Below, piece after piece: positions 1,444 through 42,429 of a stretch of 45,174 nt of DNA. The DNA comes from a virus. Where the stretch lies: positions 1 through 45,174 of IMG/VR virus record IMGVR_UViG_3300037136_000085. One strand, 5' to 3'. A program made the position numbers and the translations under genes. Under the pieces are notes generated by a model. It saw only the letters and a program-made list of their open reading frames with translations. It searched no databases and was not told where the DNA came from. Each line of letters begins with the position of its first letter. Positions within the stretch are counted from its first letter, which is position 1.

Positions 1444-1475
1444 GCGATAAAACAGAAGGAGAAGTAAAATGTTAG
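1440..1475 (+). other. Linker mini-ORF of 11 codons (MSDKTEGEVKC)
   Basis: It begins in the stop of the 102-aa gene (ATGA at 1440) and ends just inside the next gene (ATG 1469). It includes AGAAGGAGAAG, a strong ribosome binding site for the membrane peptide downstream. Confidence 0.4.
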
Positions 1476-1549
1476 CTTTCATAAGTTTTATTATCGGTGT
1501 AATTGCATTCATTATCGGGTCTATCTTGAGCAACAAGGATAATTACTGA
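1469..1549 (+). CDS. Single-pass membrane micro-protein, 26 aa
   Basis: The sequence begins MLAFISFIIGVIAFIIGSIL and ends SNKDNY. It is one continuous hydrophobic helix with a short polar tail, so insertion in the inner membrane is expected. AGAAGGAGAAG lies upstream. Stop and next start overlap (TGATG at 1547-1551). It could be a holin-like or host-modifying peptide, but size alone does not decide. Confidence 0.6.
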   Translation: MLAFISFIIGVIAFIIGSILSNKDNY

Positions 1550-1704
1550 TGAAGCACACGTCTTGTCCCAGCGGCTACCTGCAATGGCATTATTGGGCAG
1601 ATAAAATGTCTAAGACGCACAGGCAAATTCAGTGCCCGTGTTGTGGGCTATGGGCAGTGTGGGTTAAGAAAGAACCAAGCGCAGCCGGAAAGGGAACACC
1701 GTGA
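1549..1704 (+). CDS. Cys-rich small protein, 51 aa
   Basis: The protein begins MKHTSCPSGYLQWHYWADK and has a second cysteine cluster (QCPCC). The C and H residues could bind zinc. It ends in the recurrent KEPSAAGKG tail. Its TGA at 1702-1704 overlaps the GTG start of the glycosyltransferase at 1701 (GTGA). Confidence 0.65.
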   Translation: MKHTSCPSGYLQWHYWADKMSKTHRQIQCPCCGLWAVWVKKEPSAAGKGTP

Positions 1705-2498
1705 CTGATCCAGAAAGAGATGAGCAGGTGATCCGAAATATTGGTGGATCTGTTTTCATCAGAAATGCGATCAAATATGACTATTGTATTCTTGAATCGA
1801 TAAAGAGTATTCTCCCCCTAGACCAAGTCGTGGTGCTAGATTGTCAAAGTGACGATGGCACGACTGAAATGCTGGAAGAATTCTGTAAACACCATTCAAA
1901 TATAAAGTTTGTAAAGAATGCGGTATGGGAATGTGCTCCAAATTTTGAGAGACTTGCCATTCTTGCTAATATCGCTATTTCCCATTTGGATGGAATGGAT
2001 TGGCATTTTATGATTCAGGCTGATGAAGTGCTTCATGAAAGTAGCATTCGGGTTATTAGAAATGTTGTTGGTAGCTACGAGACCATTATGTGTCGAAGGA
2101 TTCATGTTTGGAAGGATTTTGATCACCAAATCAGACACGATATTCCTAATCAGAGAAAACCAGCTAGTGACCAAGTCATTCGATTAGGTAAAATGAGCCA
2201 GTTGGCTACCGGAGATGCTGAGAACTTAGAAGCTGGATTTTGTAATAATAATTGGACAGATAAGATTGTTCTTTTCCATTATGGATTTGTGAGAAAGAAT
2301 GAAGTATTGAAAGTTTCTGATATGCAAAAGTGGTTTAATGGTCCTAATATCGGAGTCGATCCTAGAATCATCGCGATGCAGGGAGATGGTATTTTTAGGC
2401 CCGAAGTGTTTTTTGATGATTCTGAGCTTTGTAAGATTGATATGCCGCATCCCATAGTGGCAAGAGATTGGGTTAACGAAAGAAGGAAGATAGAGTGA
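1701..2498 (+). CDS. Glycosyltransferase family 2-like protein, 265 aa
   Basis: A GT-A fold enzyme by pattern: an N-terminal strand (GGSVFIRNA), then VVVLDCQSDDGTTEML, the usual nucleotide-sugar DDG motif around residues 46-55, then WHFMIQADEVLH (around residues 107-118), where the D.E pair occupies the metal-binding DxD position. Such enzymes move a sugar from a nucleotide donor to a glycan or protein. The acceptor is unknown. The start is GTG, overlapping the upstream stop, and the end overlaps the next GTG at 2495. Two more glycosyltransferases follow within 1 kb. Confidence 0.85.
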   Translation: MTDPERDEQVIRNIGGSVFIRNAIKYDYCILESIKSILPLDQVVVLDCQSDDGTTEMLEEFCKHHSNIKFVKNAVWECAPNFERLAILANIAISHLDGMDWHFMIQADEVLHESSIRVIRNVVGSYETIMCRRIHVWKDFDHQIRHDIPNQRKPASDQVIRLGKMSQLATGDAENLEAGFCNNNWTDKIVLFHYGFVRKNEVLKVSDMQKWFNGPNIGVDPRIIAMQGDGIFRPEVFFDDSELCKIDMPHPIVARDWVNERRKIE

Positions 2499-2926
2499 AT
2501 CAAAATATAACTGTCCCGCCTTGGACTCGTAGATTATTTGTATTTGCCATTCGTGAACGCCAAAAGGTTTATGGTGTCAATCTCTACCGCGGCACTCAGC
2601 GCAGAGGCATGATGAGTCGTGCCGAAGACCTTTGGATTATAAATATCTCAAAAGGGTGTCGTGGCTGGCATGATGGTGATAAGTTTAACCCTTGGGTGGT
2701 AGGCCAACGGGTGCTAGTTTCAGATGCTTTCGAGCTAGAGCCCATCCAGCCTTGCGATTGGGATAACTATAGCGCTCTTCCCGAGTTTTCGAATCTCGCA
2801 CGTATGGCAGAAATGGTTGAGGGGCGAGTATGCTCTGCAATAATTCACGAGGATAGCATTCTTTCGCTTTGCGAAGATTCTCTTCGATTACAGGAAACTG
2901 AAAATGCTCGCGATGGAATGCGGTAA
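2495..2926 (+). CDS. Conserved-type hypothetical protein, 143 aa
   Basis: The GTG start overlaps the glycosyltransferase stop and is preceded by AGAAGGAAGA. The middle (WVVGQRVLVSDAFELE) and the EDSIL segment near residue 120 look like a small beta-barrel of the kind found in co-chaperonin-like phage proteins; that resemblance is from memory and tentative. The last 242 bases (2685-2926) lie opposite the 3' end of the minus-strand glycosyltransferase, so one of the two C-termini may be incidental. Confidence 0.65.
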   Translation: MNQNITVPPWTRRLFVFAIRERQKVYGVNLYRGTQRRGMMSRAEDLWIINISKGCRGWHDGDKFNPWVVGQRVLVSDAFELEPIQPCDWDNYSALPEFSNLARMAEMVEGRVCSAIIHEDSILSLCEDSLRLQETENARDGMR

Positions 2927-3623
2927 TTGATTCATGCTCTTTAACACCAAGCAAATAGCCACGAGTTGAGGATTCATTATGGATAGCCGAAATGGTGTCA
3001 GTATAGAGGATGCGGCTGCCGCTTTGCCACGTACGCAAGCAGAACGAGACATCTTCGTAACTCAGACTATACTCCTCGGGATAGAGGCTTACTTTATTAA
3101 GATCGAGAAGTTGAAAAGCTCCAGTTACACCGCCGACAAAGCGAGTGCCCAAGCCCCCCTCCCACGTTCGGTAGAACGGATGCTGCATCTCCTTAGACGA
3201 ATTGCATTCGAATCCCCCATGCTGCAATCGCCCATCTGGATACCAAAGACGTATGCCCACTACCGCAAGACTTTCTATATTGCGGAAATACTCAAAAAGG
3301 GGTGATATTTTGTGAGTGAGCGTTATGTCATTATTGAGGATGAGGGCATACTGGATAGAGTGAGTCAGCAGGAATTTCAATCCGTGGTTGACGTTCTTGG
3401 AATACCCATCATTTTTCCGCCGTCGGATTCCGGTTACGCCATATGGTGCAAGCATGGTGGCGAAGTCTTTATCCGAAAGGTCGGGAGAGGCGTCATCACT
3501 GACCACTACACTCCGAAGGAGTGTTGGTTCAACGCGTTGAATCGAATCAAGCAAATTATAAAGTAACCAAAGTGAATTATCGTTGACATTGTAATGTGGG
3601 ATTACTATTCCTAAAGATGACAT
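2685..3623 (-). CDS. Glycosyltransferase family 2, 312 aa
   Basis: A clear GT2 enzyme: MSSLGIVIPHYNV start, VVVSDDASPD, a NDGYSKNVNHGL helix, ALILNNDI (the DxD-like motif), YPDGRLQHGG, and YEDVSFCLRTW (catalytic ED region). It resembles the N-terminal domain of the fusion protein at 23681 (YPNGAIQHGGG, DDSEYCIRAW, ATRG), so the two are probably paralogues. I chose the ATG at 3623 because it sits directly before the first beta strand. A start at 3659 would extend further into the neighbour. The ATG shares the CATG palindrome with the divergent gene at 3622. The C-terminal 80 residues lie opposite the 2495 gene. Confidence 0.85.
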   Translation of the reverse strand: MSSLGIVIPHYNVNDNSLWLLYNLLDSIQRVEPTLLRSVVVSDDASPDLSDKDFATMLAPYGVTGIRRRKNDGYSKNVNHGLKFLLTHSIQYALILNNDITLTHKISPLFEYFRNIESLAVVGIRLWYPDGRLQHGGFECNSSKEMQHPFYRTWEGGLGTRFVGGVTGAFQLLDLNKVSLYPEEYSLSYEDVSFCLRTWQSGSRILYTDTISAIHNESSTRGYLLGVKEHESITAFHREHFQFPVIEENLRKAKECYPRELLQSILAPQPFLPYVRDSKTREERYSYPNRKAGWALARKHLKLAPVGLPPKG

Positions 3624-4629
3624 GAAAAGAATCATACTCACTTCGGGGGATGTTGACAATGGGCTTACTCACCAACGGGCTCATTTGTTTCTTCGTCATC
3701 TTAAACACCAATACGAATTCCGTTCTATCAGTTTTGATAAGCTCTGCCATTCTGAGCTTTTGTATGCCGATGGTTTGGTTATGTTCCATCCGAACCATTC
3801 TACTCAAGCACACTTCATCCACCGAGCCAAAACCCAATACGGAATCAAAGTCTTAATTGATCTGGATGACATGACAGATAATCTGCCAAGTGACCATCCA
3901 GAATACGCTTATTTCAAAAATGGATCGGTTCCCGATATCGTTAAATTTGCCGACCACGTGGTGGTAAGTACTGATCGGCTCCAAAAACACTGGGGGCATT
4001 TAAACAAAAACATCAGTGTGATCGAAAACCAGATTGATCCTTCGAGAGTAAAGAACTTTGTCAAACAACCAAAGCCCTATCATTCGGGGTTTGTTGTTGG
4101 TTGGACGGGTTCTCAGTCTCATCGGCCTGATCTTTACAATACTGGATTCATCGAGGGGTTAAGAATGCTCATGCGGCAGAGAGACGATGTGAGAGCTTAT
4201 TTCCATCTTCTTTGTCCGCAGACTTTACTTGATGAATTCGGAGCGAGGGTTATTTACAATGAATCAGTCGTCGATTTCCTGGACTATCCTGCCATGTGTT
4301 TTACTTATCCTTTTGATGTATGTGCGGTACCGCTTTACGACCACCCATTCAACGAAGCGAAATCCGATCTGCGGTTGCTTGATATGTCGCCTTTCAAAAT
4401 TCCGGTCGTCGCAACCAATATTGGGTCCTACTGTCAACACTCAGACCGGGCCATCCTTACAAATAACACCGAAGAAGACTGGTATGAGGCGCTCAAGTGG
4501 TGCTACGAAACGCCCAAAGAACTCGAAAAAACGGCAGATAAAGCCTTCGAGTACGTTACCAAAGAAAGAACTATATTGAATTCGATTTCAAAATGGGATG
4601 CTTTGTTTAAATTGCATTTGGGTCATTGA
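3622..4629 (+). CDS. GT-B type glycosyltransferase, 335 aa
   Basis: Domain pattern of GT-B enzymes: an N-terminal half with VLIDLDDMTDNLP and DHVVVSTDRLQKHW, then a linker VIENQID, then the C-terminal Rossmann half starting at FVVGWTGSQSHRPD and a donor-site region (DVCAVPLYDHPFNEAKSDLRLLDMS, read as short pieces) where the acidic and Lys residues would contact the sugar nucleotide. It probably transfers a sugar onto a surface glycan or a phage protein. The promoter is probably the small region shared with the divergent GT2. It converges on the ejection-protein gene with a 7-base overlap. Confidence 0.85.
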   Translation: MKRIILTSGDVDNGLTHQRAHLFLRHLKHQYEFRSISFDKLCHSELLYADGLVMFHPNHSTQAHFIHRAKTQYGIKVLIDLDDMTDNLPSDHPEYAYFKNGSVPDIVKFADHVVVSTDRLQKHWGHLNKNISVIENQIDPSRVKNFVKQPKPYHSGFVVGWTGSQSHRPDLYNTGFIEGLRMLMRQRDDVRAYFHLLCPQTLLDEFGARVIYNESVVDFLDYPAMCFTYPFDVCAVPLYDHPFNEAKSDLRLLDMSPFKIPVVATNIGSYCQHSDRAILTNNTEEDWYEALKWCYETPKELEKTADKAFEYVTKERTILNSISKWDALFKLHLGH

Positions 4630-7948: not shown

Positions 7949-8866
7949 TTATCCGCTATCGCTAAGCGCACTTGAGAATGAATTTGCGGCTCCGGCTTGA
8001 GCATTACTATTACTTGCAGCAGCTTGATTTGCCCCTATTTGAGATCCGGCTTGAGCACCACCAGAAGCACCAGCTAACCCCCCGATCAGTGCCTGCATGA
8101 AACTTCCGGGGGTTCCGTACTGAGTTTGCATTCCGTTAGTGGTTCCCGTTTGGCTCTGGGTTTGCTGACCCGTAGCAAGATATTGATTTTGAAGCAATCC
8201 AAGTAAGTAAGGATTTTGCGCTGCCACAGTATTAGCTTGAGCCTGTTGGTTCATATTGTTGGCATAGTTCAATCCTTGATTAGCTGCCCCTTGCTGAGCG
8301 GCAACCGTCTGATAAGGAAGCTGGAGATTGGCCGATGCTGCCTGACCTGCCGCATTGTTGGTGGCAGTGGCTAACTGGTTGGTTGCTGTTCTCACGGCGT
8401 CACCTTGAAGCTGGCTCACTGCCTGACCACGTAAGCCCTGCTGACCGGCAGCCTCAGTCATTTGACCCAAGTTCTGCTGGAGCATGAGATTAGTGGCATT
8501 CGTCGCATTTCCGATCTGCGCGTTAGCTTGCTGCTGAATCAGAGCTTGTTGCTGCGGGGTAGCTTGAAAAGCTGATCCGTTTAAGACACCCGCTTGTTGA
8601 GCTTGAGCTTGATTTTGAATATTTTGGGCATTTCCGATGTTGCCTTGGTATTGTTGAGCCAAAGCTTGCTGTTGAAGATAGTTTTGAAGTGAGCTTTGTT
8701 GGAGTTGTTGTTCTGTTTGAGAGAGGGGTCCAAGTTGAAGCTGCGAAGTCTGAGTCCCCGATGTCGTCCCCGTATTTCCCGTATATTGGTTAGGAGTTCC
8801 TACTGCACCAGCAGCAGCACCGCCTGCGGCACCTAAAACACCACCACCTGCTATTGCGCCCATCAT
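7949..8866 (-). CDS. Gln/Ala/Asn-rich virion (ejection-type) protein, 305 aa
   Basis: It begins with a glycine/alanine hydrophobic segment (GAIAGGGVLGAAGGAAAGAVG), followed by more than 200 residues dominated by Gln, Ala and Asn. This composition is typical of small ejected pilot proteins that precede the larger ones in podoviruses. The start overlaps the end of the GNAT-like gene (ATGA at 8863-8866), with AGGAGG just upstream. Confidence 0.6.
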   Translation of the reverse strand: MMGAIAGGGVLGAAGGAAAGAVGTPNQYTGNTGTTSGTQTSQLQLGPLSQTEQQLQQSSLQNYLQQQALAQQYQGNIGNAQNIQNQAQAQQAGVLNGSAFQATPQQQALIQQQANAQIGNATNATNLMLQQNLGQMTEAAGQQGLRGQAVSQLQGDAVRTATNQLATATNNAAGQAASANLQLPYQTVAAQQGAANQGLNYANNMNQQAQANTVAAQNPYLLGLLQNQYLATGQQTQSQTGTTNGMQTQYGTPGSFMQALIGGLAGASGGAQAGSQIGANQAAASNSNAQAGAANSFSSALSDSG

Positions 8867-9246
8867 AACCTCCTTGTTACTTGGTAAAAGGATTTCTCAC
8901 TAACGTGAGCCCCTTGTCTTTGATATTCTTTTTGTAAATCTTTTCGGTTAGGTTCAACGAAACCCATTAGAACCGCATAGCCGTGGTCTTTAGCCCAGTG
9001 TACGGCAGTTTTAGCTAAAATCCTAACTGCTTTGGCTCTTGTGAAACTTGAGCACTTTGGATTAGTTTGAAGAAATTCATAAATACAAAAACTTGAATAA
9101 GTAGGAACTAGAAACCCCGAAGCAATCATCTCGTCCCCACGATGAGCAACAAGTCCAATATGGCCACGTAGCGAAGTGTCCACCCCCTCATACCAGCTAT
9201 TTACCACCTCATTGGTGTTAACGTACGCCATTACTTCGATGTCCAT
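8863..9246 (-). CDS. GNAT-like acetyltransferase-fold protein, 127 aa
   Basis: Size and strand/helix order fit a GNAT fold: RGHIGLVAHRGDEMIASGFLV (strands), a CSSFTRAKAVRILAKTAV helix in the acetyl-CoA-binding region, AVLMGFVEPNRKDLQKEYQRQGA near the end. The classical Q/RxxGxG/A loop is not clear, so enzyme activity is uncertain. It lies in the virion block directly after a second protein of the same kind. It overlaps that gene by 16 bases. Confidence 0.55.
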   Translation of the reverse strand: MDIEVMAYVNTNEVVNSWYEGVDTSLRGHIGLVAHRGDEMIASGFLVPTYSSFCIYEFLQTNPKCSSFTRAKAVRILAKTAVHWAKDHGYAVLMGFVEPNRKDLQKEYQRQGAHVSEKSFYQVTRRL

Positions 9247-9632
9247 AGGAGTCTCGAATACCCTTCTTCTTTTCTGAAATCATTGAATTCCATTTGAGAA
9301 GCTAGAGCTTTGTTTTTCGTAAAAAAGCAAAGCGCTTTTATTTCAGGTTCAAACACTTTGGCTAGTTCCTTAATACGCTCAACTAACGAATTCAAAGATT
9401 CGGCCCCTATCTTACGGTCCACATCAGGGTTAGTAGCAAGCCAATCGATATAAGCAATGCCGCGTCCAGTAAGATAAATCCAAGCACACGCATATTTTAC
9501 TTCACCCTCCTCAGCAATGAGACCAAAACCCGGCCCAATATTTTCAATAACAGGATAGGGCCATTTTCGATTGAGAAACCATCTTGCGATTTCTTCTAGG
9601 TCTCTATCTGCTTGGATCTCTCTAATTTCCAT
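9231..9632 (-). CDS. GNAT-like acetyltransferase-fold protein, 133 aa
   Basis: The opening MEIREIQADRDLEEIARWFL is a typical GNAT start. GPGFGLIAEEGEVKYACAWIYL and IAYIDWLATNPDVDRKIGAESLNSLVERI give the central strands and the CoA-site helix (IGAESL). The end NDFRKEEGYSRLLW is compatible. Pairs of such genes occur near tail genes of podoviruses, where their role is unclear; virion-protein acetylation would be a guess. Confidence 0.6.
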   Translation of the reverse strand: MEIREIQADRDLEEIARWFLNRKWPYPVIENIGPGFGLIAEEGEVKYACAWIYLTGRGIAYIDWLATNPDVDRKIGAESLNSLVERIKELAKVFEPEIKALCFFTKNKALASQMEFNDFRKEEGYSRLLWTSK

Positions 9633-9638
9633 AAGTCC

Positions 9639-10565
9639 TTATTGTTTGATGATGTAATTAACGACCACAGCCGGATTTATAATGTTCATAGGTGTACCAC
9701 TTCCCGTAATATCTGAAACACCAGAGGCGATTGTATGGCTATGCGCGCCTGTCGTGTTGGTAAACGTATTTCCAGTAGTGCCGCCTATCGACGAATACAA
9801 ATTTGGATTAGAGCCGTTGACTATGAATCCCTGTCCCACCAATCCAAGTTGCGTCCAAGTGAAATTGAAAAAGTGGGAGTGAGCGCCGTCCGTACTTGTA
9901 CCGTAAGATCCTGGACCATGAGTATGTGCAGCTAATTCTCCTACTACTTGGGTGTGGGTCTCACTTCCCACTTGGGTTCCTAAAGTCCTGGCAGTCAGAT
10001 TGCTACCCGGTCCGTTTCCTCCAGGACCCGCGCCGATTGGCATTTGGGATCTCATATCAGGGACATTAAAAGTGGTTACGTTATCACCAACCCCGTAGGT
10101 AGTGCCAATGACGGCGAATAGATTAGCGTAAGTAGTACGACTATAAGCAGTTCCGTCGCAGATGAACCACCCTGCCGGAGCAGTAGCCCCACCATACATG
10201 GTGATTACTCCTGAGAAAGAAGGCCCAAAACTGTTTGACCCGATCCCCGTTGCTTCAACCTGGTTGCCGACAATGGTCAATGTATTGTTGTCTACATTCA
10301 CATTCAACACGCCCGTTGCGTTTGTTCGAATGAGACCGTTTCCGGCAAGTGTTGCGTTTAATTGCGAAGGCACGATATTGGCTGTAGCAATGAGGTTAGT
10401 ACCATCAAGAGAATTGACCGCATTTACCAGATTGTTAAATTCAGTATTTAGTTCAAGAGCAGTTAAGATCGAACCATCCGTAAAAGTATAAATTCGACTG
10501 ACTTGAGCGGCTTCCACATTCAAGCAAAGAACTGCACAAAGACTAAGTATAATTCGGGTTAGCAT
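9639..10565 (-). CDS. Exported tail-collar-domain fibre protein, 308 aa
   Basis: The C-terminal half holds a phage tail collar domain: GVITMYGGATAPAGWFICDG, then YANLFAVIGTTYG and FNVPDMRSQMPIG, followed by repeated HTHGPG / HSHFF / HSHT histidine motifs that bind metal in short fibres. The N-terminus MLTRIILSLCAVLCLNVEAA is a Sec signal peptide with a cleavage site after about residue 20. The start at 10565 was preferred to the upstream one at 10613 because GGAGG lies 6-7 bases before it; it overlaps the preceding tail gene by 23 bases. A signal peptide on a tail fibre is unusual. Confidence 0.85.
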   Translation of the reverse strand: MLTRIILSLCAVLCLNVEAAQVSRIYTFTDGSILTALELNTEFNNLVNAVNSLDGTNLIATANIVPSQLNATLAGNGLIRTNATGVLNVNVDNNTLTIVGNQVEATGIGSNSFGPSFSGVITMYGGATAPAGWFICDGTAYSRTTYANLFAVIGTTYGVGDNVTTFNVPDMRSQMPIGAGPGGNGPGSNLTARTLGTQVGSETHTQVVGELAAHTHGPGSYGTSTDGAHSHFFNFTWTQLGLVGQGFIVNGSNPNLYSSIGGTTGNTFTNTTGAHSHTIASGVSDITGSGTPMNIINPAVVVNYIIKQ

Positions 10566-12111
10566 CTTCGACCTCCAATATGAATCCGTAAATCTCAATG
10601 TCACTATTTCCACCTGATATTAAATCAACTTGAATACCGTAACCGATGTCATCAATACTAACCGTGGTAGGGACGAATTGTCCAACCCCAAGCACGCTCT
10701 TCCCTAGAACGAAAGTAGTTCCAAGCAAATCTTGTCCTTGAGTTAAATTGATGGGTTTTGATCCGTATTTGGTGCCGTCAATCACCCAACCGACAGTGAA
10801 TTGGGAAGGAACTAAGGTGGCTGCTAGAACGGTAATGCTCTTGAAGCGTTTTTGTTTATCCATCGTGCCCGGATAGAGAACGCCAGTTAGCATTCGAGCC
10901 GTAAAGCCTGCATTTCCTAAATCACTTTGGGTATTCTGGTTAAGAAGAGCGATTGTGCCGTCTTCTCGGCCCGTCATGATGTTGAGTTGGTTATTGAGGT
11001 AAAGAGTGGCAATACTTCTAGCCTCAATGCCAGTCCAGTTAGTCCACGTGCCGTATTCAATATTGTAGACTAAGAGCGTGTCATTGGTTTCCTGACCGCT
11101 TGAAGGAACTGAGATCATATAGCAGTTCACGTTAGGAAAAAAGACTGCCGTGATTTGTTTGAAGATTGAAGGATTGATAAGAGTTGTCCAAAGTTTTTGA
11201 ATATCTCGAGATAAGAAGGTCGATTCAGTCAAACGGCTCGCATTCATTTGACGTAATGAATGCACTCCACGCTCACTAGGAAAAATCACATCGTTTGGAA
11301 CTTGCACAATACTTGCGTTACTTATAGCACCAATCCCGCGACTTACCGGGTAGAGATCAAAAGTAGTCGGATCATTGCCCGTTAAAGTGTAAAGAGATTT
11401 ACGGGTCCAGATGTAAAGCTGTCCCTGAAACGAAGCAATCCCCGTAATGCCTTCAGGGTCACCATCTGCGTCTAGGTCAAGAGATGTCCCGTTATCGGGA
11501 GGAATATTGTCCCAGTTCTCTGGATTAAATTCCGTACTTAAATAAACTCGAAATGGAAAATCATCGTTACCCGCCATGACCATTCGGCCTAAATGGGAAC
11601 AGAGATACTTCCCTACTCCATCGGGGGGAGGATTTGCCGCCCGAGCAGTTGATGAAGTGCCGTCCCATACATTGTATCCGTCTGCCGTAATGGTTGAACA
11701 GAAGTACAAAAATTGATTGAACATCTGATAAGAAGGAACACCATTTGGTGATAAAACAAGCGCTCCGGTTACGTCCACCGCAGGCGAAGAGCGCCCTGGA
11801 ATATTCCAAACTTGAGTACCTTGGTGCAAGAAAATACTATCAATTGGATTTCCGGCTAAAGAGGCCGTGCGCCAGAAGTCTAAGATCCCTCGAATTGGAA
11901 CGCCTGATGCCGGATAACTTGGAGTCGAAGCGTAGCATCCCGTATTGTAAGGGACCTGGCCACCTCGTTTCTTTCTAGAGATGGTGGTGCCCATCAAGAG
12001 ATTGTCGGCAATCACCATTTGGTTCTTAGCCAAAACGATAGGATTTTCTGAGACTAAGCCGCCGCCGATCCCATCAATTCCGAAATAAGAATATCTCCTA
12101 GTTGACTCCAT
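10543..12111 (-). CDS. Tail hub/stabilisation-type protein, 522 aa
   Basis: A soluble beta-rich protein. Recognisable blocks are an N-terminal ENPIVLAKNQMVIADN, a middle IASFQGQLYIWTRKSLYTL and VIFPSERGVHSL, and later NDTLLVYNIEYGTW with LNIMTGREDGTIALLN. Such repeats of 'value at a position' strands are seen in the P22 gp10-like tail needle adaptor/stabilisation family. It follows the adaptor gene directly and precedes the collar fibre, the order expected in short-tailed phages. Confidence 0.7.
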   Translation of the reverse strand: MESTRRYSYFGIDGIGGGLVSENPIVLAKNQMVIADNLLMGTTISRKKRGGQVPYNTGCYASTPSYPASGVPIRGILDFWRTASLAGNPIDSIFLHQGTQVWNIPGRSSPAVDVTGALVLSPNGVPSYQMFNQFLYFCSTITADGYNVWDGTSSTARAANPPPDGVGKYLCSHLGRMVMAGNDDFPFRVYLSTEFNPENWDNIPPDNGTSLDLDADGDPEGITGIASFQGQLYIWTRKSLYTLTGNDPTTFDLYPVSRGIGAISNASIVQVPNDVIFPSERGVHSLRQMNASRLTESTFLSRDIQKLWTTLINPSIFKQITAVFFPNVNCYMISVPSSGQETNDTLLVYNIEYGTWTNWTGIEARSIATLYLNNQLNIMTGREDGTIALLNQNTQSDLGNAGFTARMLTGVLYPGTMDKQKRFKSITVLAATLVPSQFTVGWVIDGTKYGSKPINLTQGQDLLGTTFVLGKSVLGVGQFVPTTVSIDDIGYGIQVDLISGGNSDIEIYGFILEVEDANPNYT

Positions 12112-13110
12112 TTATAGCCAGTCTTCCTCACGAGCAAAATCGTTTATGTCCATGGTGAGACCGTAACGACGACGCCTACGACCTGCCCTCCCACGACGCG
12201 CTCTAAGTATGTATTTCGAATCGGTGAGCTTAGTGTCACCTTGCATATTCATGAGTGCCATTTTGTATTGTTGGTCAAAAAGGGCTGCTCCTTGTGCGTC
12301 TCTCAAAAACATATACATCTCAGCCATTGCGCCGTAATAGAGCACCACTCGGTGGCGATCCGGGATCAGACAATAGTTTGAATAACTGTCAGAGAGGACT
12401 TGGATGTTTACGCCATAATTGAGCGATGCGGTATAGTCACGATCAGGAGCAGGATAGATCTCATAAGTTCTCACACCGTCAACCGCTCGTCTGCCGACAT
12501 CGGTGTACCATCTTGGGATACCAACATAGGTCAGATCTCGGGCCTGCTTTCTCCGAAATTCTTGAATGCCCATCGGAACGAGTTTGCCAAGGTCATCACC
12601 AAGCACGATGCCAATGATCTGTTCGCAGTCTCCGGGGGCTGTATAAACTGGCTTTATAATTTGGTAACCGCTACTGGGCGTGAGATCGTCTCCAGCAAAT
12701 TGCCCTTGAAGAGTTAATTGGGTGTCAGACTGGATGCTGTCAATTACGTAACGATCAGACCTTGGTTGAACGGTTAGGAAATTATTCGGTAAAGCGTTTG
12801 AGGAAAAGTTTGTTCCAACGCCGGTTACGATTTGGCTTCGGTTATCAATGGAGACTGTACCTTCGGAATAATACCCTTCAAACAGAGTATCAACGACATT
12901 GTAGAGCCAATCCCACGGCCTTTTGGTGCTAACAAATGAATAACAATTGTTGATGAAAGAGAGGACAGCTAGACGCTTATTGGTCTCAGACGCCGGATTA
13001 GCGTGTCCCGTATTTCTTAGAACTGCATCGATCATCGACCCCGTACTAAAGAGCGGATCGGAACTAAAGATCTCTGTACCAAATGCGCCATTACCAAAAG
13101 GACCCGGCAT
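12112..13110 (-). CDS. Head-tail adaptor (P22 gp4-like), 332 aa
   Basis: Residues 40-60 (NKRLAVLSFINNCYSFVSTK) are helical; KRPWDWLY, then a small beta domain (GTVSIDNRSQIVTGVGTNF), then helices ending in MYMFLRDAQGAALFDQQYKMAL fit the dodecameric adaptor that plugs onto the portal. A basic segment (RARRGRAGRRRRRYG) precedes the acidic end. The stop abuts the tail gene with no gap. The start overlaps the lipoprotein gene end at 13110. Confidence 0.7.
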   Translation of the reverse strand: MPGPFGNGAFGTEIFSSDPLFSTGSMIDAVLRNTGHANPASETNKRLAVLSFINNCYSFVSTKRPWDWLYNVVDTLFEGYYSEGTVSIDNRSQIVTGVGTNFSSNALPNNFLTVQPRSDRYVIDSIQSDTQLTLQGQFAGDDLTPSSGYQIIKPVYTAPGDCEQIIGIVLGDDLGKLVPMGIQEFRRKQARDLTYVGIPRWYTDVGRRAVDGVRTYEIYPAPDRDYTASLNYGVNIQVLSDSYSNYCLIPDRHRVVLYYGAMAEMYMFLRDAQGAALFDQQYKMALMNMQGDTKLTDSKYILRARRGRAGRRRRRYGLTMDINDFAREEDWL

Positions 13111-13454
13111 TAGCGACCTCCAGTGGGACTTGGTCCCGTTTGACAGACTTTAAGATCATTCTGGCATTTCAGGTAAGCTGCTTTCGAGGCGTAGAAATCA
13201 GGAGCCATCATGGTGATGCATTTTAAGAGAACTGGAGTGGTGGACGCTCCAGGAGAAGGAGCCGGGTCGGGTTTGCATTCGTCAAGAGCCACATCAGGCC
13301 ACCCAGAACTCCCACTTACTCCGAGTAAAGTTCCTTCGTCGTAACAGCCTCCAGGCATCGAGGTGGCATAATACTTATAGGGGAAAGTCGAAGCGCATCC
13401 GATAAGCACCACCACAGCACCACAGACGAAACTTAAAACTTCACGCCTATTCAC
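13110..13454 (-). CDS. Phage lipoprotein (possible Rz1/spanin-like), 114 aa
   Basis: The N-terminus MNRREVLSFVCGAVVVLIGC has a basic start, a hydrophobic core and a lipobox LIGC, so it is probably lipidated at Cys20 and sent to the outer membrane. The mature part is Pro-rich (DPAPSPGAS) and has further cysteines. In a cluster of small membrane proteins this is compatible with an outer spanin subunit, but it is longer than most Rz1 proteins. The start overlaps the upstream stop (ATGA). Confidence 0.65.
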   Translation of the reverse strand: MNRREVLSFVCGAVVVLIGCASTFPYKYYATSMPGGCYDEGTLLGVSGSSGWPDVALDECKPDPAPSPGASTTPVLLKCITMMAPDFYASKAAYLKCQNDLKVCQTGPSPTGGR

Positions 13455-13633
13455 TGAGGTCTCCCGGTTTCTTCGGATTTGGTTAAATCTGTCTCTGCTT
13501 GTTGATCAATTTGGTTATCGGTCTGGGCGGGAGGAGTCGTAAGCGCCCAAGTGCTGTACTTGAAAATGTAGACAATCCCACCAACGATTGTACCCAGACT
13601 AGCAATTGCGGCAAGTATCGCAGTTAGGCTCAT
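13451..13633 (-). CDS. Small membrane protein, holin or spanin-like, 60 aa
   Basis: One transmembrane helix (ILAAIASLGTIVGGIVYIF) at the N-terminus, with a polar acidic tail (QIDQQAETDLTKSEETG). The topology suits an inner-membrane spanin partner or a class III holin. It overlaps genes on both sides by ATGA, within a cluster of membrane proteins, which supports a lysis role; the sequence gives no direct proof. Confidence 0.55.
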   Translation of the reverse strand: MSLTAILAAIASLGTIVGGIVYIFKYSTWALTTPPAQTDNQIDQQAETDLTKSEETGRPQ

Positions 13634-13773
13634 TGTCCTTCCTCCTTATAAGTAACCTTTTTATCGAGCCATTTGGGTTGAGGTAGGTGCAGTCCTACTA
13701 AGAAAGGGACAAGGACTTTTGTGAAGTCTATGATCTTGCCCATCACTTCTAAGTAGAACTGCTCCTTACTCAT
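13630..13773 (-). CDS. Small hypothetical protein, 47 aa
   Basis: It reads MSKEQFYLEVMGKIIDFTKV then a moderately hydrophobic LVPFLVGLHL and a basic tail. The start overlaps the upstream stop (TAATG at 13771-13775), and the end overlaps the next start (ATGA), with AAGGAGGAAGG just before the next gene. No family recognised; perhaps membrane-associated. Confidence 0.6.
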   Translation of the reverse strand: MSKEQFYLEVMGKIIDFTKVLVPFLVGLHLPQPKWLDKKVTYKEEGQ

Positions 13774-14051
13774 TATTTCCCCGTAATGGTGCGAATTGCT
13801 TTGAAAGCGCCATCAGCGAATGCTTGTGCAACACCAATGGGTTCAGCCGTCAATTCAGCACCAATCAACCCTGCGCTCGAGAGTGCTGGCCCCAGAGCAG
13901 CAACCACTGCGGCGAGATCGGCTCCGATTTCAACCGTTGTGCCCCCACCAGCTTTATGAGCAGCAACTACCGCTACTAGCAAATTTGAAATCCCGGTAGC
14001 AAGAGCGGCGCTTCCTGCTGGCTCCATAATCGTGACATTTGTATCAGCCAT
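13773..14051 (-). CDS. Ala/Gly-rich hypothetical protein, 92 aa
   Basis: Almost entirely small residues with alternating hydrophobic segments (NLLVAVVAAHKAG, ADLAAVVAALGPALSSAGLIGAEL). It may form helices that associate with membranes. It sits in the coupled cluster of small membrane proteins between the fibre and the adaptor genes, so a holin or antiholin role is possible but unproven. Confidence 0.55.
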   Translation of the reverse strand: MADTNVTIMEPAGSAALATGISNLLVAVVAAHKAGGGTTVEIGADLAAVVAALGPALSSAGLIGAELTAEPIGVAQAFADGAFKAIRTITGK

Positions 14052-14065
14052 TTTTCTTCCTTTGG

Positions 14066-14329
14066 TTATTGGTCGTTAGCCGACCCGTTTAGTGACCATT
14101 GTTGGTCAACACTTTTTTTAAGTTCAATTTTCATATCAGCAACGTCTTTTTGCATGAGGGCAATGTTAATCGCCATTTGGTTTATCTTATCTTCTCGGCT
14201 CTCGATCTTTAGAATCTGTTTGGCATTCGCGTTGGTTTGGAAATTATTGAAAGCAAGCCACGCACTTAAAGTAATCAGCGCAGTTAAGGATTTCAGATCG
14301 AATCTCAATTTGTCATCTATATGGACCAT
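14066..14329 (-). CDS. Holin-like membrane/coiled-coil protein, 87 aa
   Basis: An N-terminal hydrophobic helix (SLTALITLSAWLAFNNF) is followed by a charged coiled coil (ILKIESREDKINQMAINIALMQKDVADMKIELKKSV, read as short pieces). This resembles haemolysin XhlA-type phage proteins in arrangement, although there the coil usually comes first. AAGGAGG precedes the start. First gene of the putative lysis cluster. Confidence 0.5.
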   Translation of the reverse strand: MVHIDDKLRFDLKSLTALITLSAWLAFNNFQTNANAKQILKIESREDKINQMAINIALMQKDVADMKIELKKSVDQQWSLNGSANDQ

Positions 14330-14344
14330 GAATCCTCCTTTAAA

Positions 14345-15940
14345 TTATAAGACCTGAAAAATTGACCAATGGTTATAAGCACCACTTCCTGTAGTTGTTC
14401 GTGATGACCCCGTATTTTGAGTTATATAGATCTCAATCTGAGTTCCGCTGGGGAGATACATCAACCCAGATACACTTGAACCTATTGAAACCGTACTCGA
14501 ATAAGTCGCGGTTACGCTCCAGGTATTACCTCGCATGAGTTCACTAAATCCGCTACCCTCATTGATGAATACTTGAGCCCACATGCCCACGACTGGAGAG
14601 CCCGAAGGAATGTCCAGCGAAACAGTAGCGTCGAGTTGATAATATCCGGTCGTAGGAGTTACGTAATATTGACCGCCTGAATTCCATCCAGAGGCAGTAT
14701 CATTGGCAACCGTCCATCCTGTAATTTGTGCACTACTAATTCCGCTCTGTCCACCCCCATTAGTAGCTATGAATTTAGCCGCAGATGCTCCCGATCCGCT
14801 ACTTGCGGCGGTGATCAAGCCTTTGCCGTTCACCGTTATGCTGGCATTCGTAAAAGAACCGACATTAGAATTCACAGTAGCCAGGGTGGTGGCATTCCCA
14901 CTCGATGTTACATCCCCTGTTAAATTGGCATTCGTGGTTACATGTCCAGCAGTCAAAGAAGATGCGGTGCCCGATATATTTGTACCAACCAATGCACTAG
15001 GAGTTCCTAGAGCCGGAGTAATCAATGTTGGTGAAGTATTCATGACAAAAGTTGAACCAGTACCCGTCTGTGAAGCAATGGCTGTAGCATTGCCCGTCGA
15101 AGTAATCGGACCTGTTAGATTTGCATTGGTGGTAACTGTAGCTGCATTTCCTGTCGTATTAGCGGCATTATTTGGTATGTCACCACTCGAAAGAGTTGTT
15201 GCTGCCGTAACTAGTCCTTTGGCATTTACAGTGACTTTAGGAAAAGTTCCAATATTGGAATTGACAGTAGCAAGGGTGTTAACCGATGAACCGGATGGGC
15301 TCGTTACATCACCTGTAAAAGCGGGTAATTGAGTTGAGCCCAGAGATCCAGAGATATCAGTAAAAGCTGGTTGAGCTTGAGTGAATTGTCCACTTGTACC
15401 TAGACCCGTTAAAAACTGGCTTGTAACCAATGTAGTGGAATTAACAGCACCAATCGAGGAAAGAGTTGGGGTCGGGAGATCCGGGCCAATGAGAGCGGAA
15501 GAGGTTAGGTCCCCGTTCACATTTGAATGAATAACGCCAAGACCATAAGCAGTATTTATAAATGGTTGGGTGAAAGTCTTTTGGCCGGTTATAGTTTGAG
15601 CACCGCCAAGATTGACCGCTCCCCCTGATAAAATGGTCCCGATATCAGTATCAATGCATCCTAAATAGGATTGTACGTTAAGAGAGCCGGGACACGCGGC
15701 TGATCCCGGCAAGATCGAAATGGCCGAGGCCGGAAATGCCCCCGTTGTGGTGTTCATGAAATTGGTGAGGCTTGACGCCGTAATGAACATTTGGGCGTCT
15801 ATGAGGTCGTAATTATCCCGAACGGCTGGTCCCCAAGTGGTCGAACCATCTTGAGGCTTGTCGAGATTGTAATGGGTGGTGAAGGTATCACCAAAACTTA
15901 GGCTTGATGTGATTAGACCAAGCCATAAAAGAAATTTCAT
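14345..15940 (-). CDS. Exported tail-fibre protein with C1q-like tip, 531 aa
   Basis: The N-terminal 16-17 residues (MKFLLWLGLITSSLSFG) look like a Sec signal peptide. Next comes a short region seen at the N-terminus of phage fibres (THYNLDKPQDGSTTWG). The central part has repeats of the type TNANLTG.[IV]TS.GNAT and VT.N.KGL[IV]TAA, typical of trimeric beta-helical shafts. The last 130 residues (YYVTPTTGYYQLDATVSL onward) resemble a C1q/TNF-type trimeric head. It lies just behind the capsid gene terminator. It probably binds the host, and the signal peptide implies an export step. Confidence 0.75.
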   Translation of the reverse strand: MKFLLWLGLITSSLSFGDTFTTHYNLDKPQDGSTTWGPAVRDNYDLIDAQMFITASSLTNFMNTTTGAFPASAISILPGSAACPGSLNVQSYLGCIDTDIGTILSGGAVNLGGAQTITGQKTFTQPFINTAYGLGVIHSNVNGDLTSSALIGPDLPTPTLSSIGAVNSTTLVTSQFLTGLGTSGQFTQAQPAFTDISGSLGSTQLPAFTGDVTSPSGSSVNTLATVNSNIGTFPKVTVNAKGLVTAATTLSSGDIPNNAANTTGNAATVTTNANLTGPITSTGNATAIASQTGTGSTFVMNTSPTLITPALGTPSALVGTNISGTASSLTAGHVTTNANLTGDVTSSGNATTLATVNSNVGSFTNASITVNGKGLITAASSGSGASAAKFIATNGGGQSGISSAQITGWTVANDTASGWNSGGQYYVTPTTGYYQLDATVSLDIPSGSPVVGMWAQVFINEGSGFSELMRGNTWSVTATYSSTVSIGSSVSGLMYLPSGTQIEIYITQNTGSSRTTTGSGAYNHWSIFQVL

Positions 15941-23548: not shown

Positions 23549-23563
23549 TTATACCGTCCTTAG

Positions 23564-23643
23564 TGCCCCCAAACGGAATCGAACCGATGTCTGCCCAGTA
23601 GTCATCCCTGAACTGTGCTATTCTGCCACTAAACTACGGGGGC
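23564..23643 (-). tRNA. tRNA-like gene with atypical anticodon arm (80 nt)
   Basis: On the minus strand the 7-bp acceptor stem GCCCCCG/TGGGGGC pairs (last pair G-T) and has discriminator A. The D-arm GTTT-AGTGGCA-GAAT and T-arm GG-TTCGATT-CC have normal loops. The region between them is 30 nt where about 22 is usual. GCACAGT pairs with ACTGGGC (one A-G mismatch) leaving a 12-nt loop TCAGGGATGACT, so no 5-bp/7-nt anticodon arm forms and I cannot assign an anticodon. One T-stem pair is mismatched. It may be a degenerate or specialised tRNA. It lies between the two diverging blocks. Confidence 0.65.
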
Positions 23644-23680: not shown

Positions 23681-25855
23681 ATGAAATTTTCAATCGTCAT
23701 CCCGACCTATGGCCGCCTTGACCTTGTTACCGCTTGCGTCAAATCAATCAAAAAATACGAACCCAACACCAAGGAATACGAAATAATTGTCGTAGACGAT
23801 TTCAGTACGGTGGAAAACCGAGAAAATATAAAGAAGCTCGCGACAACTTTGGGTTTCAAATTGGTTGGAACTGACCGAAATGTGGGATTCGCCTCTGCGG
23901 TGAACGCCGGAGCTAGGCACTCTCATGGAACGCACATTATTCTTTGCAACAATGATGTATTATTCACTAATCCGATCTTAGAAAAGTTTAAGCAATCCCA
24001 TTTATGCTCTAAAGCCCCGATCATCGGTTGTACCCTTTTCTACCCAAATGGCGCTATTCAGCATGGTGGTGGTGCTTATCAAAACGGAGTTTTCTTTCAC
24101 ACTAACGATCCAAAATCAACTGCCACAAGTCGCTATTGCATCTACGTTACGTTTGCTCTGGTTTCTATAGAACGATATTTCTATAACTGCATCGGCAATC
24201 TTGACGAAAACTTCTTCATGGCTTGTGATGATTCAGAATATTGCATCCGAGCGTGGTCAAATGATCTTAAAGTATTCTATGATGCATCGATCACGGCCAT
24301 TCATGCTGAAGGTGCAACTCGCGGTAGAACCCATGCCGAAAAGAAGAATAACCGAAAATGCCTAGAAGAAGAGAAGAAATCTATTGCAAGATTAACCACC
24401 AAAATGGGGAATATCGTGAGCTTACTTAGAAAAGTCCAAAGCGCCAACATGGGTAATACGCCTGATATTAAAATAGAAATAGGCTCCGGATACAACCCCC
24501 AACCTGGCTATCAGCATATTGACGCGAGACCTGACCTCCCCAGTTTACACCACTGTTTGGACTTCTCAAAAGACGCTTTGCCATATGGTGATGGAGAAGT
24601 GTGTGAGATCCTATCTAATCACTCCATTGAACACATCTCTTACCGCAAACTTCCTTTCGTATTCCAAGAATGGGCTCGAGTATTAAAGCCGGGTGGGAAG
24701 CTCCTACTTCGGACTCCGGATCTTCGTTTCATTTGTGAAACGTATTTGGCTGGTAAAACAACGCCCGAGTGGCCCGATGACGAAAAATACATTCGAGATA
24801 ATTTTGGAAATGTATCCCCAGCCTGGTGGGCCAATATCAAACTATTTGCGGGCCAGGACTATCCCGGAAACTTTCATCAACTCTGCTTTGATTTTGAAAT
24901 GCTGAAAAGTGCTCTCATAAGATACGGATTTGACAAGATCACTAAACTCGATATCAAGCCGGTTTACTCCCCCGGTGAACTTCAAATAGAAGCTTTCAAA
25001 GCAGTTCCTAGACCCACCATTCGTATAAAACGAATGGGGGCTTTGGGCGATGTGATCCTGACCACTCCACTCATTATTCATTTGAGTGCAATGAACGACA
25101 TCCATGTAACAACCGGATGCCCAGAGGTTTTTAAAAACCACCCTGCGGTAAAAACCATAAACACGAATTTTCCTTGTGATCAGTTTATTGATTTAGATTT
25201 GGCTTATGAAAACGATCCAAAGAAACATATTGTGGACGCCTATGCAAAAGCAGCTCAATGCCCAGAATTCAGGTATATGCCGCCCTGGATTTGGGGGGAT
25301 GAACACCCTTTGCCTGATCTTAAAAACTATGTGGTAGTCCATGCGGCTCGCACTTGGGAGAATAGAACCTGGCCTGCCGAATATTGGGACCAAGTTTCTT
25401 ACCATTTAGGGTCGATGGGGTACGCTGTCATTGCGGTAGGCTCGAATAGCGACATGAAAGTGCGAGATGCCACCAACATTAGGGGCATGACAATCCATCA
25501 GCTAAAAACAATCATCAACGGGGCCAAGGCTTTCATCGGGAGTGATTCTGGGATCTTGCATATTGCAGCCACGACAGAAACACCAATTGTTGGGATATTC
25601 ACCTGCGCAAAGGGGGAATACCGGCTCCCCAAGAGAAGCAACGCCGTTGCGGTCAGGACCAATCTCGAATGCTATGGTTGTCTCCATGACGTTACTCCTC
25701 CAGTGACTTATGTGGGTTGTAAAATCGGAGGTAATCCCTGTGTGAGAGAAATTACCCCCGATGCCGTAATTAGCGTTTTTAACGCCTTACTGACAAGTAA
25801 CGGGGCCGAAGGGAAGAGTCTGATCAACGAGCATACCGACGGCTGTGAACCGTGA
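23681..25855 (+). CDS. Tri-domain GT2-methyltransferase-GT9 fusion, 724 aa
   Basis: Residues 1-230 are a GT2 glycosyltransferase (FSIVIPTYGR, IIVVDDFS, HIILCNNDV, DDSEYCIRAW). Residues about 262-440 are a SAM-dependent methyltransferase-like domain (IEIGSGYNPQPGYQHIDARPD as motif I and II, NHSIEHISY, WARVLKPGGKLLLRTPD). Residues about 446-715 are a GT9 heptosyltransferase-like domain (RIKRMGALGDVILTTPL, VVHAARTWENRTW, FIGSDSGILHIAA). Such genes normally act on lipopolysaccharide or glycoproteins. A lone plus-strand gene between two minus-strand blocks, it probably has its own promoter; none is clear. Its 3' end overlaps a minus-strand gene by 69 bases. Confidence 0.9.
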   Translation: MKFSIVIPTYGRLDLVTACVKSIKKYEPNTKEYEIIVVDDFSTVENRENIKKLATTLGFKLVGTDRNVGFASAVNAGARHSHGTHIILCNNDVLFTNPILEKFKQSHLCSKAPIIGCTLFYPNGAIQHGGGAYQNGVFFHTNDPKSTATSRYCIYVTFALVSIERYFYNCIGNLDENFFMACDDSEYCIRAWSNDLKVFYDASITAIHAEGATRGRTHAEKKNNRKCLEEEKKSIARLTTKMGNIVSLLRKVQSANMGNTPDIKIEIGSGYNPQPGYQHIDARPDLPSLHHCLDFSKDALPYGDGEVCEILSNHSIEHISYRKLPFVFQEWARVLKPGGKLLLRTPDLRFICETYLAGKTTPEWPDDEKYIRDNFGNVSPAWWANIKLFAGQDYPGNFHQLCFDFEMLKSALIRYGFDKITKLDIKPVYSPGELQIEAFKAVPRPTIRIKRMGALGDVILTTPLIIHLSAMNDIHVTTGCPEVFKNHPAVKTINTNFPCDQFIDLDLAYENDPKKHIVDAYAKAAQCPEFRYMPPWIWGDEHPLPDLKNYVVVHAARTWENRTWPAEYWDQVSYHLGSMGYAVIAVGSNSDMKVRDATNIRGMTIHQLKTIINGAKAFIGSDSGILHIAATTETPIVGIFTCAKGEYRLPKRSNAVAVRTNLECYGCLHDVTPPVTYVGCKIGGNPCVREITPDAVISVFNALLTSNGAEGKSLINEHTDGCEP

Positions 25856-26503
25856 GGCGTTCGTAGTTCCCAAAACATAATGGACTTCGGGCTGAGCGCC
25901 AGCAATATACGAAGAACTAGACGGCCCGGTTTCGTATCCCGCACAAGCGACCACCGACTTCCCATTAGCTTGCATGAGAAACTTCGTACCGCGAGCAGGC
26001 TTGCTTGCTGCGTTCCAATACATATTGACTTCCCACATCTCACACTCGGCTGGCGGTTTATAATTGGTGCTTCCTTGACCAACATTGCCGCCTTCGCTTG
26101 GTGTCCAAACCTGTTTGTAAGAAGCATTATAAACGTCCGTACAACCCGGTTGAACTTTAAATCCCATGGAAATTAAAACACCACAAGCGCGCGCTAGGTG
26201 TTGGGCGATTCCATCCGTTTCATTCTGCGGCCAAGTTCCGTTAAAACCCATATCTTCGGCAGCCACTAAATGGGATTCAACTACAACTTGTCCCGATGCG
26301 GGAAGTTGGATGTTACCATTGATGCGACCCATGACTTGGCTCACCATCGCGCAATTATGCGCCATGATTTTAGGTGACGGGCTAGGAATCGGTACCGGAA
26401 GAGTTCCAATAGGAGGAACCGATGCACAACGAGAAAGAAATATAAATAGAAAGGCAAGTACCCCAACTACTACAATTGGAAAATACCGCTGTTTATTTGA
26501 CAT
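25787..26503 (-). CDS. Membrane-anchored or lipoprotein-like hypothetical protein, 238 aa
   Basis: A strong N-terminal hydrophobic segment (YFPIVVVGVLAFLFIFLSRC) could be a signal anchor; LSRC is a poor lipobox because of Arg before Cys. A Pro-rich spacer (PVPIPSPSPK) and a mixed globular domain with several cysteines (HNCAMV, LARACGVL, VQPGCTD, AECEMW) follow. Located directly after the endolysin gene, so it may act at lysis or in the envelope. A shorter N-terminal resemblance to the exported 130-aa protein at 31207 (HNCAMVSQVMG versus TNCAQAHELF) is weak. Its end overlaps the sugar-enzyme gene. Confidence 0.65.
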   Translation of the reverse strand: MSNKQRYFPIVVVGVLAFLFIFLSRCASVPPIGTLPVPIPSPSPKIMAHNCAMVSQVMGRINGNIQLPASGQVVVESHLVAAEDMGFNGTWPQNETDGIAQHLARACGVLISMGFKVQPGCTDVYNASYKQVWTPSEGGNVGQGSTNYKPPAECEMWEVNMYWNAASKPARGTKFLMQANGKSVVACAGYETGPSSSSYIAGAQPEVHYVLGTTNASRFTAVGMLVDQTLPFGPVTCQ

Positions 26504-41743: not shown

Positions 41744-41872
41744 ATGAGTAACATTGCCCAATTATTAACAGCGCTTTTTGTCATGGCGATTTATATTCTA
41801 ATCGGTGGAACGCTCTTAGTTGCAACACTTGCGATAGGCTTTAGGGTTTGCCGTGGTCTGGGGATTGTATGA
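41744..41872 (+). CDS. Small membrane protein, 42 aa
   Basis: MSNIAQLLTALFVMAIYIL and IGGTLLVATLAIGFRV form one long or two short transmembrane segments. The ATG lies one base after the upstream TGA, and its own TGA overlaps the recombinase ATG (ATGA at 41869-41872). Unknown function. Confidence 0.65.
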   Translation: MSNIAQLLTALFVMAIYILIGGTLLVATLAIGFRVCRGLGIV

Positions 41873-42429
41873 ATCGAAAACACTTAACACCATCCGAGTA
41901 TGAGTTACTGAAACAGGCATTGAAACAAGACGATTCAATGCCCGCACGAATACTTGAACTCATTGTCTACACTGGAATGCGGCAATCTGAAGCCTTGGCA
42001 CTAACCCATAATTCCTTAGACGTTCAAGCTCGATGCTTGAAAGTCAAAGCGCTGAAGGATTCGGAGTCCCGTCTAGTCCCCATGAGTCTAGATCTCATTG
42101 AGCGAGTAAAGCCATTATTCAATATACTCCTCGCGCGTAAAGCAAGGGCTGGAGATTTGATATCAAACTCGCTCAATCCCGAGCACCAAGCGCGGGATTT
42201 GAGACGAATTTGGAGCAAGCTTTCAGTGGCAATCTTTGGTGGTTATTATGGCGTAAGTCTTCATGGGCTAAGGCATTCTTGGGCTTTACGGATATTTGAA
42301 GTAACCAAGGGGAATTTGCTATTGACACAAAAACTAATGGGTCATAAGAACATGAATAGTACCGCAAAGTATTTGCAATATTTTTCAACACTCAATTGTC
42401 GAGACGAGGTTTTAAAAGCAAATGAATAA
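41869..42429 (+). CDS. Minimal tyrosine recombinase/integrase, 186 aa
   Basis: It contains the catalytic domain only: Arg38 (YTGMRQSEAL), Lys60 or 63, His132 and Arg135 (HGLRHSW), His159 (LMGHKN) and Tyr168 (STAKYLQY). The N-terminal SAM-like core-binding and arm-binding domains of phage integrases are missing, giving a size nearer to XerC/D-like resolvase cores. It could integrate the phage, resolve replication multimers or rearrange the repeats nearby. No att site was found beside it. The ATG overlaps the preceding stop. Confidence 0.88.
   Translation: MNRKHLTPSEYELLKQALKQDDSMPARILELIVYTGMRQSEALALTHNSLDVQARCLKVKALKDSESRLVPMSLDLIERVKPLFNILLARKARAGDLISNSLNPEHQARDLRRIWSKLSVAIFGGYYGVSLHGLRHSWALRIFEVTKGNLLLTQKLMGHKNMNSTAKYLQYFSTLNCRDEVLKANE

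Follow-up and report, generated by a model that had tools for sequence, protein, structure and literature searches.

Glycosyltransferases (GTs) encoded by phages are common, and their targets have mostly been guessed. The closest described systems to the gene discussed here combine two GTs and a methyltransferase (MT) in one polypeptide. A064R of chlorovirus PBCV-1 is a soluble protein of 638 aa with the domain order GT-GT-MT; each of the three activities has been demonstrated, and together they produce the methylated terminus of the capsid glycan (PMC9614988). WsaE, which belongs to the S-layer glycan system of Geobacillus stearothermophilus, is likewise soluble and trifunctional, with two GTs and an MT, and a methyl group caps the chain (PMC2943079). 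The protein heptosyltransferase TibC provides a further point of comparison through its short N-lobe and a motif of four cysteines (PMC4358343). Each domain of the phage protein described below belongs to a family that is already known, and trifunctional GT/GT/MT enzymes are known too.

We analyzed an IMG/VR virus record of 45,174 bases, referred to as the window, which encodes an SU10-like portal, a Mu gpT-like capsid protein and a terminase, together with replication-type genes (a family A DNA polymerase, a DUF2800 nuclease, an Enc34-like ssDNA-binding protein and a VapE-type primase). Because a tyrosine integrase is encoded as well, the phage is probably temperate. The features of interest are the following:

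23681..25855, plus strand: 724-aa GT2-methyltransferase-GT9 fusion (ORF, Pfam matches, collinear homologues in contigs L022 and L149)
23681..24415, plus strand: GT2 (GT-A) domain, aa 1-245 (PF00535 and sequence motifs)
24464..25003, plus strand: class I SAM-dependent methyltransferase domain, aa 262-441 (PF08241, alignment, identities, model)
25013..25798, plus strand: short-form GT9 (GT-B) domain, aa 445-706 (PF01075, model, alignments)
1701..2498, plus strand: GT2-like glycosyltransferase whose homologues accompany GT9 genes in about 20 IMG/VR loci
2685..3659, minus strand: second GT2, related to the N-terminal third of the fusion (28%)
3622..4629, plus strand: GT4-like glycosyltransferase (phrog_7162); in three of the four other phages that have these parts, its homologue directly precedes the GT2-(MT)-GT9 gene
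41848-42429: tyrosine integrase

Like A064R, the fusion is a soluble, virus-encoded protein that unites two GT domains with an MT. Compared by domain make-up, the two proteins differ in order (GT-GT-MT in A064R vs. GT2-MT-GT9 in the fusion) and in the GTs themselves, the first domain of A064R being a retaining GT-A enzyme and the second representing a new GT family that lacks the features of GT9; PBCV-1, moreover, infects an alga. WsaE also carries two glycosyltransferase domains and a methyltransferase in one soluble chain; however, its MT is N-terminal, both of its GTs are rhamnosyltransferases that act on a lipid-linked chain, and its gene is bacterial. These two precedents show that a single chain with two GTs and one MT can complete a methylated glycan.

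The ORF runs uninterrupted from ATG to stop over 724 codons, and at the base composition of the window the chance expectation for a frame of this length is about 2e-13 in the window. The ATG coincides with the N-termini of the aligned relatives, and codon use and coding bias are similar to those of the other genes in the genome. An earlier note on this DNA had described the ORF as a fusion of three enzymes that stands as a lone plus-strand gene, and had named an erroneous joining of separate genes and a loss of catalytic residues as ways in which this description could fail. Pfam matches to GT2, MT and GT9 within one ORF and collinear homologues in two other phages bear out the fusion, and the gene is indeed flanked on both sides by minus-strand genes, with the small terminase gene and a tRNA on one flank and a 238-aa ORF and the DNA polymerase gene on the other. 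An assembly or frameshift artefact is ruled out by the independent, collinear, full-length homologues in L022 and L149, which share 40-46% identity with the fusion and whose domain junctions coincide with its own; frame decay is rejected as well, because the signature residues of all three domains are kept (NND, DD, EIGSG, Asp457 and SDSG). Given the genome-like coding bias in addition, there is next to no probability that the gene is an artefact or a decayed fusion. The only hint of divergence is a Phe in the conserved VTGA motif of the GT2 domain, where relatives carry Gly; this replacement could reflect a changed acceptor or reduced activity. The suggestion in the same note that the gene is a moron is compatible with the presence of an integrase, but the GC content of the gene (44.9% vs. 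45.2%) does not stand out.

The N-terminal third matches Glycos_transf_2 (PF00535) over aa 4-120 well above the curated cut-off (4.9e-19; 69.3 vs. 23.3 bits) and has the DXD-type motif NND (90-92) and the base motif DD (183-184) of the GT2 family. In an AlphaFold2 model of the fusion built from a 21-row alignment the GT2 and GT9 parts are well predicted, and the GT2 part (aa 1-257) aligns with GT-A enzymes at Z scores of about 20-21.7. No membrane segment was seen in the fusion protein, whose highest 19-residue hydropathy is 1.43, and it therefore does not qualify as a membrane-anchored GT2 of the GtrB type. The central third matches Methyltransf_11 (PF08241) over aa 298-342, above the cut-off (3.7e-5; 24.7 vs. 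21.2 bits); scanned alone, the domain matches the same family at 5.5e-6, and all five relatives match this family too. It carries motif I (EIGSG, 266-270) and, folded alone with the five relatives (pLDDT 71), resembles class I methyltransferase folds with Z scores of up to 11.6; the Pfam match, motif I and the Rossmann-type fold identify it as a class I SAM-dependent methyltransferase. This third is also the best conserved, with 62-65% identity to the fused relatives (L022 and L149) and 50-54% to the stand-alone ones, whereas in L022 and L149 the GT2 third is 38-39% and the GT9 third 34-41% identical.

The C-terminal third belongs to GT9, as judged from the match to Glyco_transf_9 (PF01075; aa 546-671, 1e-18, 68 bits vs. 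a cut-off of 22), the GT-B fold of the model and the catalytic base Asp457 in a GD motif (GDV). Further marks are IDLDLAYE (503-510), Arg562, SDSG (621-624) and Cys664, Cys667, Cys680 and Cys687. The model aligns with 3tov (Z 24.9), TibC (23.8), WaaF (22.8) and WaaC (22.0). The domain shares with WaaC and WaaF the GT9 Pfam family, the fold, the catalytic-Asp motif and the DSG.H.AA motif, but its N-lobe is about 60-70 residues shorter, it has four additional cysteines, and it falls into a separate clade. We refer to domains with the reduced N-lobe, the four cysteines and an Arg in place of the usual Lys as the short form of GT9. This invariant Arg (Arg562) occupies the position of the Lys in WaaC, WaaF, WaaQ and TibC, so that ADP-heptose should probably not be assumed as the donor. 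The equivalog models for LPS heptosyltransferases score far below their cut-offs (TIGR02193, 49.3 vs. 185.3 bits; TIGR02195, 48.6 vs. 134.6 bits). In the phylogeny, WaaC, WaaF and WaaQ form one clade with ordinary GT9 proteins (support 98/95), whereas the domain from the window groups with those of other fusions and of two bacterial proteins encoded at flagellin loci in an 18-row group with moderate support (83/77). With TibC the domain shares the GT9-type fold, the reduced N-lobe, the position of the catalytic Asp and the four-cysteine motif; it differs in lacking the N-terminal beta-barrel, the MT domain preceding it instead, and in having His627 for Trp305 and Arg562 for Lys230. Membership in the TibC/Aah family (TIGR04414) was rejected, as the score is 20.6 bits against a cut-off of 200 and the sugar-binding residues Lys230 and Trp305 are replaced. 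The four-cysteine motif also occurs in ordinary GT9 proteins (Burkholderia and Sulfitobacter rows of the alignment).

Relatives were found only by alignment-based searches; single-sequence pattern searches with the fusion, the capsid protein and the portal retrieved nothing from IMG/VR, and a search with the GT9 third retrieved nothing from GTDB genomes. Pattern-based scans have limited recall, and the counts given here are lower bounds. A search of IMG/VR with the GT9 alignment gave 46 loci, among them a 63 kb contig (L022) that encodes a collinear 710-aa GT2-MT-GT9 fusion (46% identity over residues 4-696). The MT alignment added a 95 kb contig (L149) with a collinear 766-aa fusion (40% over residues 1-705) and a 41 kb contig (L150, phage G008) in which a separate MT gene (about 54%) occurs in the same genome as a GT2-GT9 fusion. 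The same arrangement is found in phage G006 (L023), whose separate MT gene (about 51%) is located 16 kb from its GT2-GT9 fusion. All five phages in which this MT subfamily was found carry the GT2-GT9 pair as well, either fused or split. The observation that G006 and G008 combine a GT2-GT9 fusion with a separate MT of the same type is a Rosetta-stone link, which argues, at the level of sequence, that the three activities belong together.

In the window the GT4-like gene lies about 19 kb from the fusion, and its homologue was not found in the examined parts of the L022 contig. In L149 the GT4-like gene that directly precedes the fusion is split by an intein (L149:6771-9140), which contains a LAGLIDADG endonuclease and is inserted in a conserved FNRSK/SNLK motif. 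The GT2-like protein encoded at 1701-2498 is likely to belong to the glycan set of the phage, whereas a role of the second GT2 in the pathway of the fusion is only possible. Members of the family of the GT2-like protein occur within a few kb of phage GT9 genes, and some of these loci also have a methyltransferase gene nearby. In L022, L149, L023, L027 and L029 the corresponding gene is located amid replication genes (such as DnaB, primase, DNA polymerase and SNF2 helicase) and does not adjoin virion genes.

The survey of architectures, for which we used profiles built in this analysis, recovered GT2-MT-GT9 (n = 3), GT2-GT9-MT, GT9-MT, GT2-GT9, GT9-GT2, GT9-GT9 and GT9 alone among the phage proteins. 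The GT2-GT9-MT order is found in L039, L042 and L052, where the MT matches are weaker, and MT genes or domains are fused to or located near GT9 in L039, L040, L042, L044, L047, L052 and others. Tandem double-GT9 ORFs of about 660 aa are present in L013, L014 and L015 (near 9430-11425 or 8468-10465). The combination of GT2, MT and GT9 is thus modular, and because phages and bacteria vary the domain order or split off the MT, the order of domains says nothing about the order of reactions. The sequence of sugar, methyl group and second sugar that the earlier note had read from the domain order is not supported, given phages with GT2-GT9-MT or a separate MT gene and bacteria with MT-GT9-GT2. In PHROGs version 4 no family is matched by E. 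coli WaaF or WaaC, which indicates that this resource offers poor coverage of phage GT9 proteins; the impression that the combination is an unfamiliar one was a fair one in this respect, but multi-domain GT9 proteins recur in IMG/VR. At 1e-5, matches of the fusion in INPHARED are confined to the GT2 third. Matches to GT9 in INPHARED fall on WaaF-type genes, found in records that are either very short or host-sized and in two Campylobacter phage records, and are probably host DNA; the WaaF-like heptosyltransferase matches in OR845414.1, MG065691.1 and MG065686.1 likewise look like host DNA and not like phage genes.

Bacterial counterparts were sought in roughly 1,000 genomes, all Pseudomonadota, sampled at the level of family, class and phylum around one Comamonadaceae genome (overlapping sets of 369, 301 and 398 genomes for the GT9 profile, and 369 genomes for the whole protein). 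A full-length GT2-MT-GT9 fusion was not found in these genomes, and only three genes encode a short-form GT9 at E < 1e-30. Two of the three lie directly downstream of flgL and encode MT-GT9-GT2 proteins that are about 1,560 residues long and share about 50% identity:

L167:10825-15504: MT-GT9-GT2 protein of genome G369, between flgL and fliC
L195:8195-12916, minus strand: MT-GT9-GT2 protein of genome G407, directly downstream of flgL

The flgL/fliC neighborhood is a known site of flagellin glycosyltransferases, and these proteins possibly represent a type of flagellin glycosyltransferase without earlier description. They combine the same three enzyme classes as the phage fusion in one chain and belong to the same short-form GT9 group, but they are about twice as long, come from a chromosomal flagellar locus, and have another domain order and another type of MT. 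Because order and MT subfamily differ, we take them to be parallel assemblies rather than orthologues of the fusion. The third short-form GT9 is encoded by a stand-alone gene that four Comamonadaceae genomes have in common; the island around it also encodes a GT41 (3.3e-82), methyltransferases and a protein with Thr/Ala-rich repeats. In L190 this island comprises a 1,362-aa repeat protein, an OGT-like GT41, methyltransferases and the short-form GT9 (697-4782 and 12947-14356), and possibly represents a glycosylated surface protein plus its enzymes. The Comamonadaceae matches do not assign a host to the phage, since they are stand-alone GT9 genes in a chromosomal glycosylation island and not prophages.

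The sequences themselves show the three domains with their signature residues, the repeated fusion and the joint presence of the split parts; from these comparisons we infer the catalytic activity, the sugars, the sequence of the steps and, most of all, the acceptor. The natural reading of the three domains would be a methyl-bearing glycan. The fusion would be a soluble, cytosolic, trifunctional glycan-assembly enzyme, in which the GT2 and GT9 domains would transfer two sugars from nucleotide-sugar donors of the host, while the MT would O-methylate one of the two, so that a short methyl-bearing glycan could be made by one chain; sugar-nucleotide genes were not recognized among the window proteins scanned. 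The GT4-like enzyme (3622-4629) may act in the same pathway. We are fairly confident in the core of this proposal, namely that a short glycan bearing a methyl group is made by a single cytosolic enzyme. Several features lead us to favor a protein as acceptor, for which we see slightly better than even chances: the genomic surroundings of the cellular relatives, the position of the GT9 domain outside the clade of WaaC, WaaF and WaaQ, and the short N-lobe and four cysteines shared with TibC; the viral precedent of A064R makes a protein of the phage's own virion our first, and tentative, guess. Several observations count against this reading: the grouping of the GT9 domain with the flagellin-locus proteins is only moderately supported, the bacterial composites differ in domain order and MT subfamily, the residues typical of the TibC family are not conserved, the four-cysteine motifs are shared with ordinary GT9 proteins, virion genes do not neighbor the gene in related phages, and the Phe in the VTGA motif could mean reduced GT2 activity or a changed acceptor. 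Taken as a whole, a trifunctional glycan-assembly enzyme that acts on protein, most likely of the virion, is the best explanation we can offer, with a probability that falls a little short of even.

A serious rival is a conversion of the cell surface, in the lysogen or during infection, in which the LPS core or O-antigen is altered so that adsorption of superinfecting phages is prevented. The LPS heptosyltransferases belong to GT9, the GT2 domain resembles rhamnosyl- and EPS transferases, and the best PHROG is a GtrB-like O-antigen conversion family; the integrase would allow a moron role, and a flippase would be unnecessary since assembly of the LPS inner core takes place on the cytosolic side of the membrane. 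A GtrA flippase or serotype-specific Gtr was not found among the neighboring proteins scanned, which included part of the small ORFs. However, the fusion has no membrane segment, its GT9 domain lies outside the LPS heptosyltransferase clade, scores far below the LPS-specific cut-offs (49 vs. 185 and 49 vs. 135 bits) and has an Arg for the Lys, and the cellular counterparts of this domain are found at flagellar or protein-glycosylation loci. The LPS heptosyltransferase target implied by the earlier note is weakened by these observations; we consider surface conversion unlikely, and prefer the view that the enzyme modifies a protein, with a virion protein as the likeliest target.

The location of the bacterial three-domain proteins at flgL/fliC and the probably temperate lifestyle of the phage are also compatible with modification of a host surface protein (a flagellin, pilin or repeat adhesin), through which a receptor would be hidden or changed. 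Yet flagellin genes are present in none of the phage loci examined, adjoining flagellin genes are a property of the bacterial MT-GT9-GT2 relatives only, large phages (94-192 kb) have the GT genes as well, and nothing that was found ties the phage from the window to a flagellated host; this explanation strikes us as rather improbable. The position of the gene among replication genes in related phages would also fit an enzyme that glycosylates and methylates modified bases in the phage's own DNA as a protection against restriction, as the genes for the base-glucosylating enzymes of T-even phages also lie among replication genes. We regard this as a minor rival with a very small probability, since no gene for a hydroxymethylase, thymidylate synthase or TET-like enzyme is present among the window proteins scanned, which included part of the small ORFs, and neither GT9 nor this type of MT is a known base modifier.

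A literature search on phage-encoded GT9 and heptosyltransferases in open-licence papers gave none on phage GT9 fusions among the papers listed. Neither the phage-enriched short-form GT9 group with its modular GT2/MT fusions nor the link of this group to bacterial MT-GT9-GT2 proteins at flagellar loci appears to be described in the literature searched, and for the latter proteins we found no described family. A broader generalization, which we consider doubtful although worth stating, is that this phage-enriched lineage, with its GT2 and MT modules, builds methylated glycans directly on phage virion proteins, as a prokaryotic counterpart of the chlorovirus enzymes for the capsid glycan, and that its sister enzymes glycosylate bacterial flagellin. 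The recurrent fusion and the phages with split parts define one pathway that is testable in a single purified protein, and the short-form GT9 group links phages to the bacterial proteins at flagellar loci. Should the acceptor prove to be a virion protein, then bacterial viruses, like giant algal viruses, produce the methylated glycans of their coats themselves.

The 238-aa ORF next to the fusion (25787-26503, minus strand) has a lipoprotein-like N-terminus, matches no family in PHROGs or Pfam, and lies tail to tail with the fusion gene, sharing about 70 bases with its 3' end. The tRNA directly beside the fusion on its other side (23563-23643, minus strand) is predicted by ARAGORN to be a tRNA-Pro with anticodon GGG and matches the Rfam tRNA model with 40 bits.
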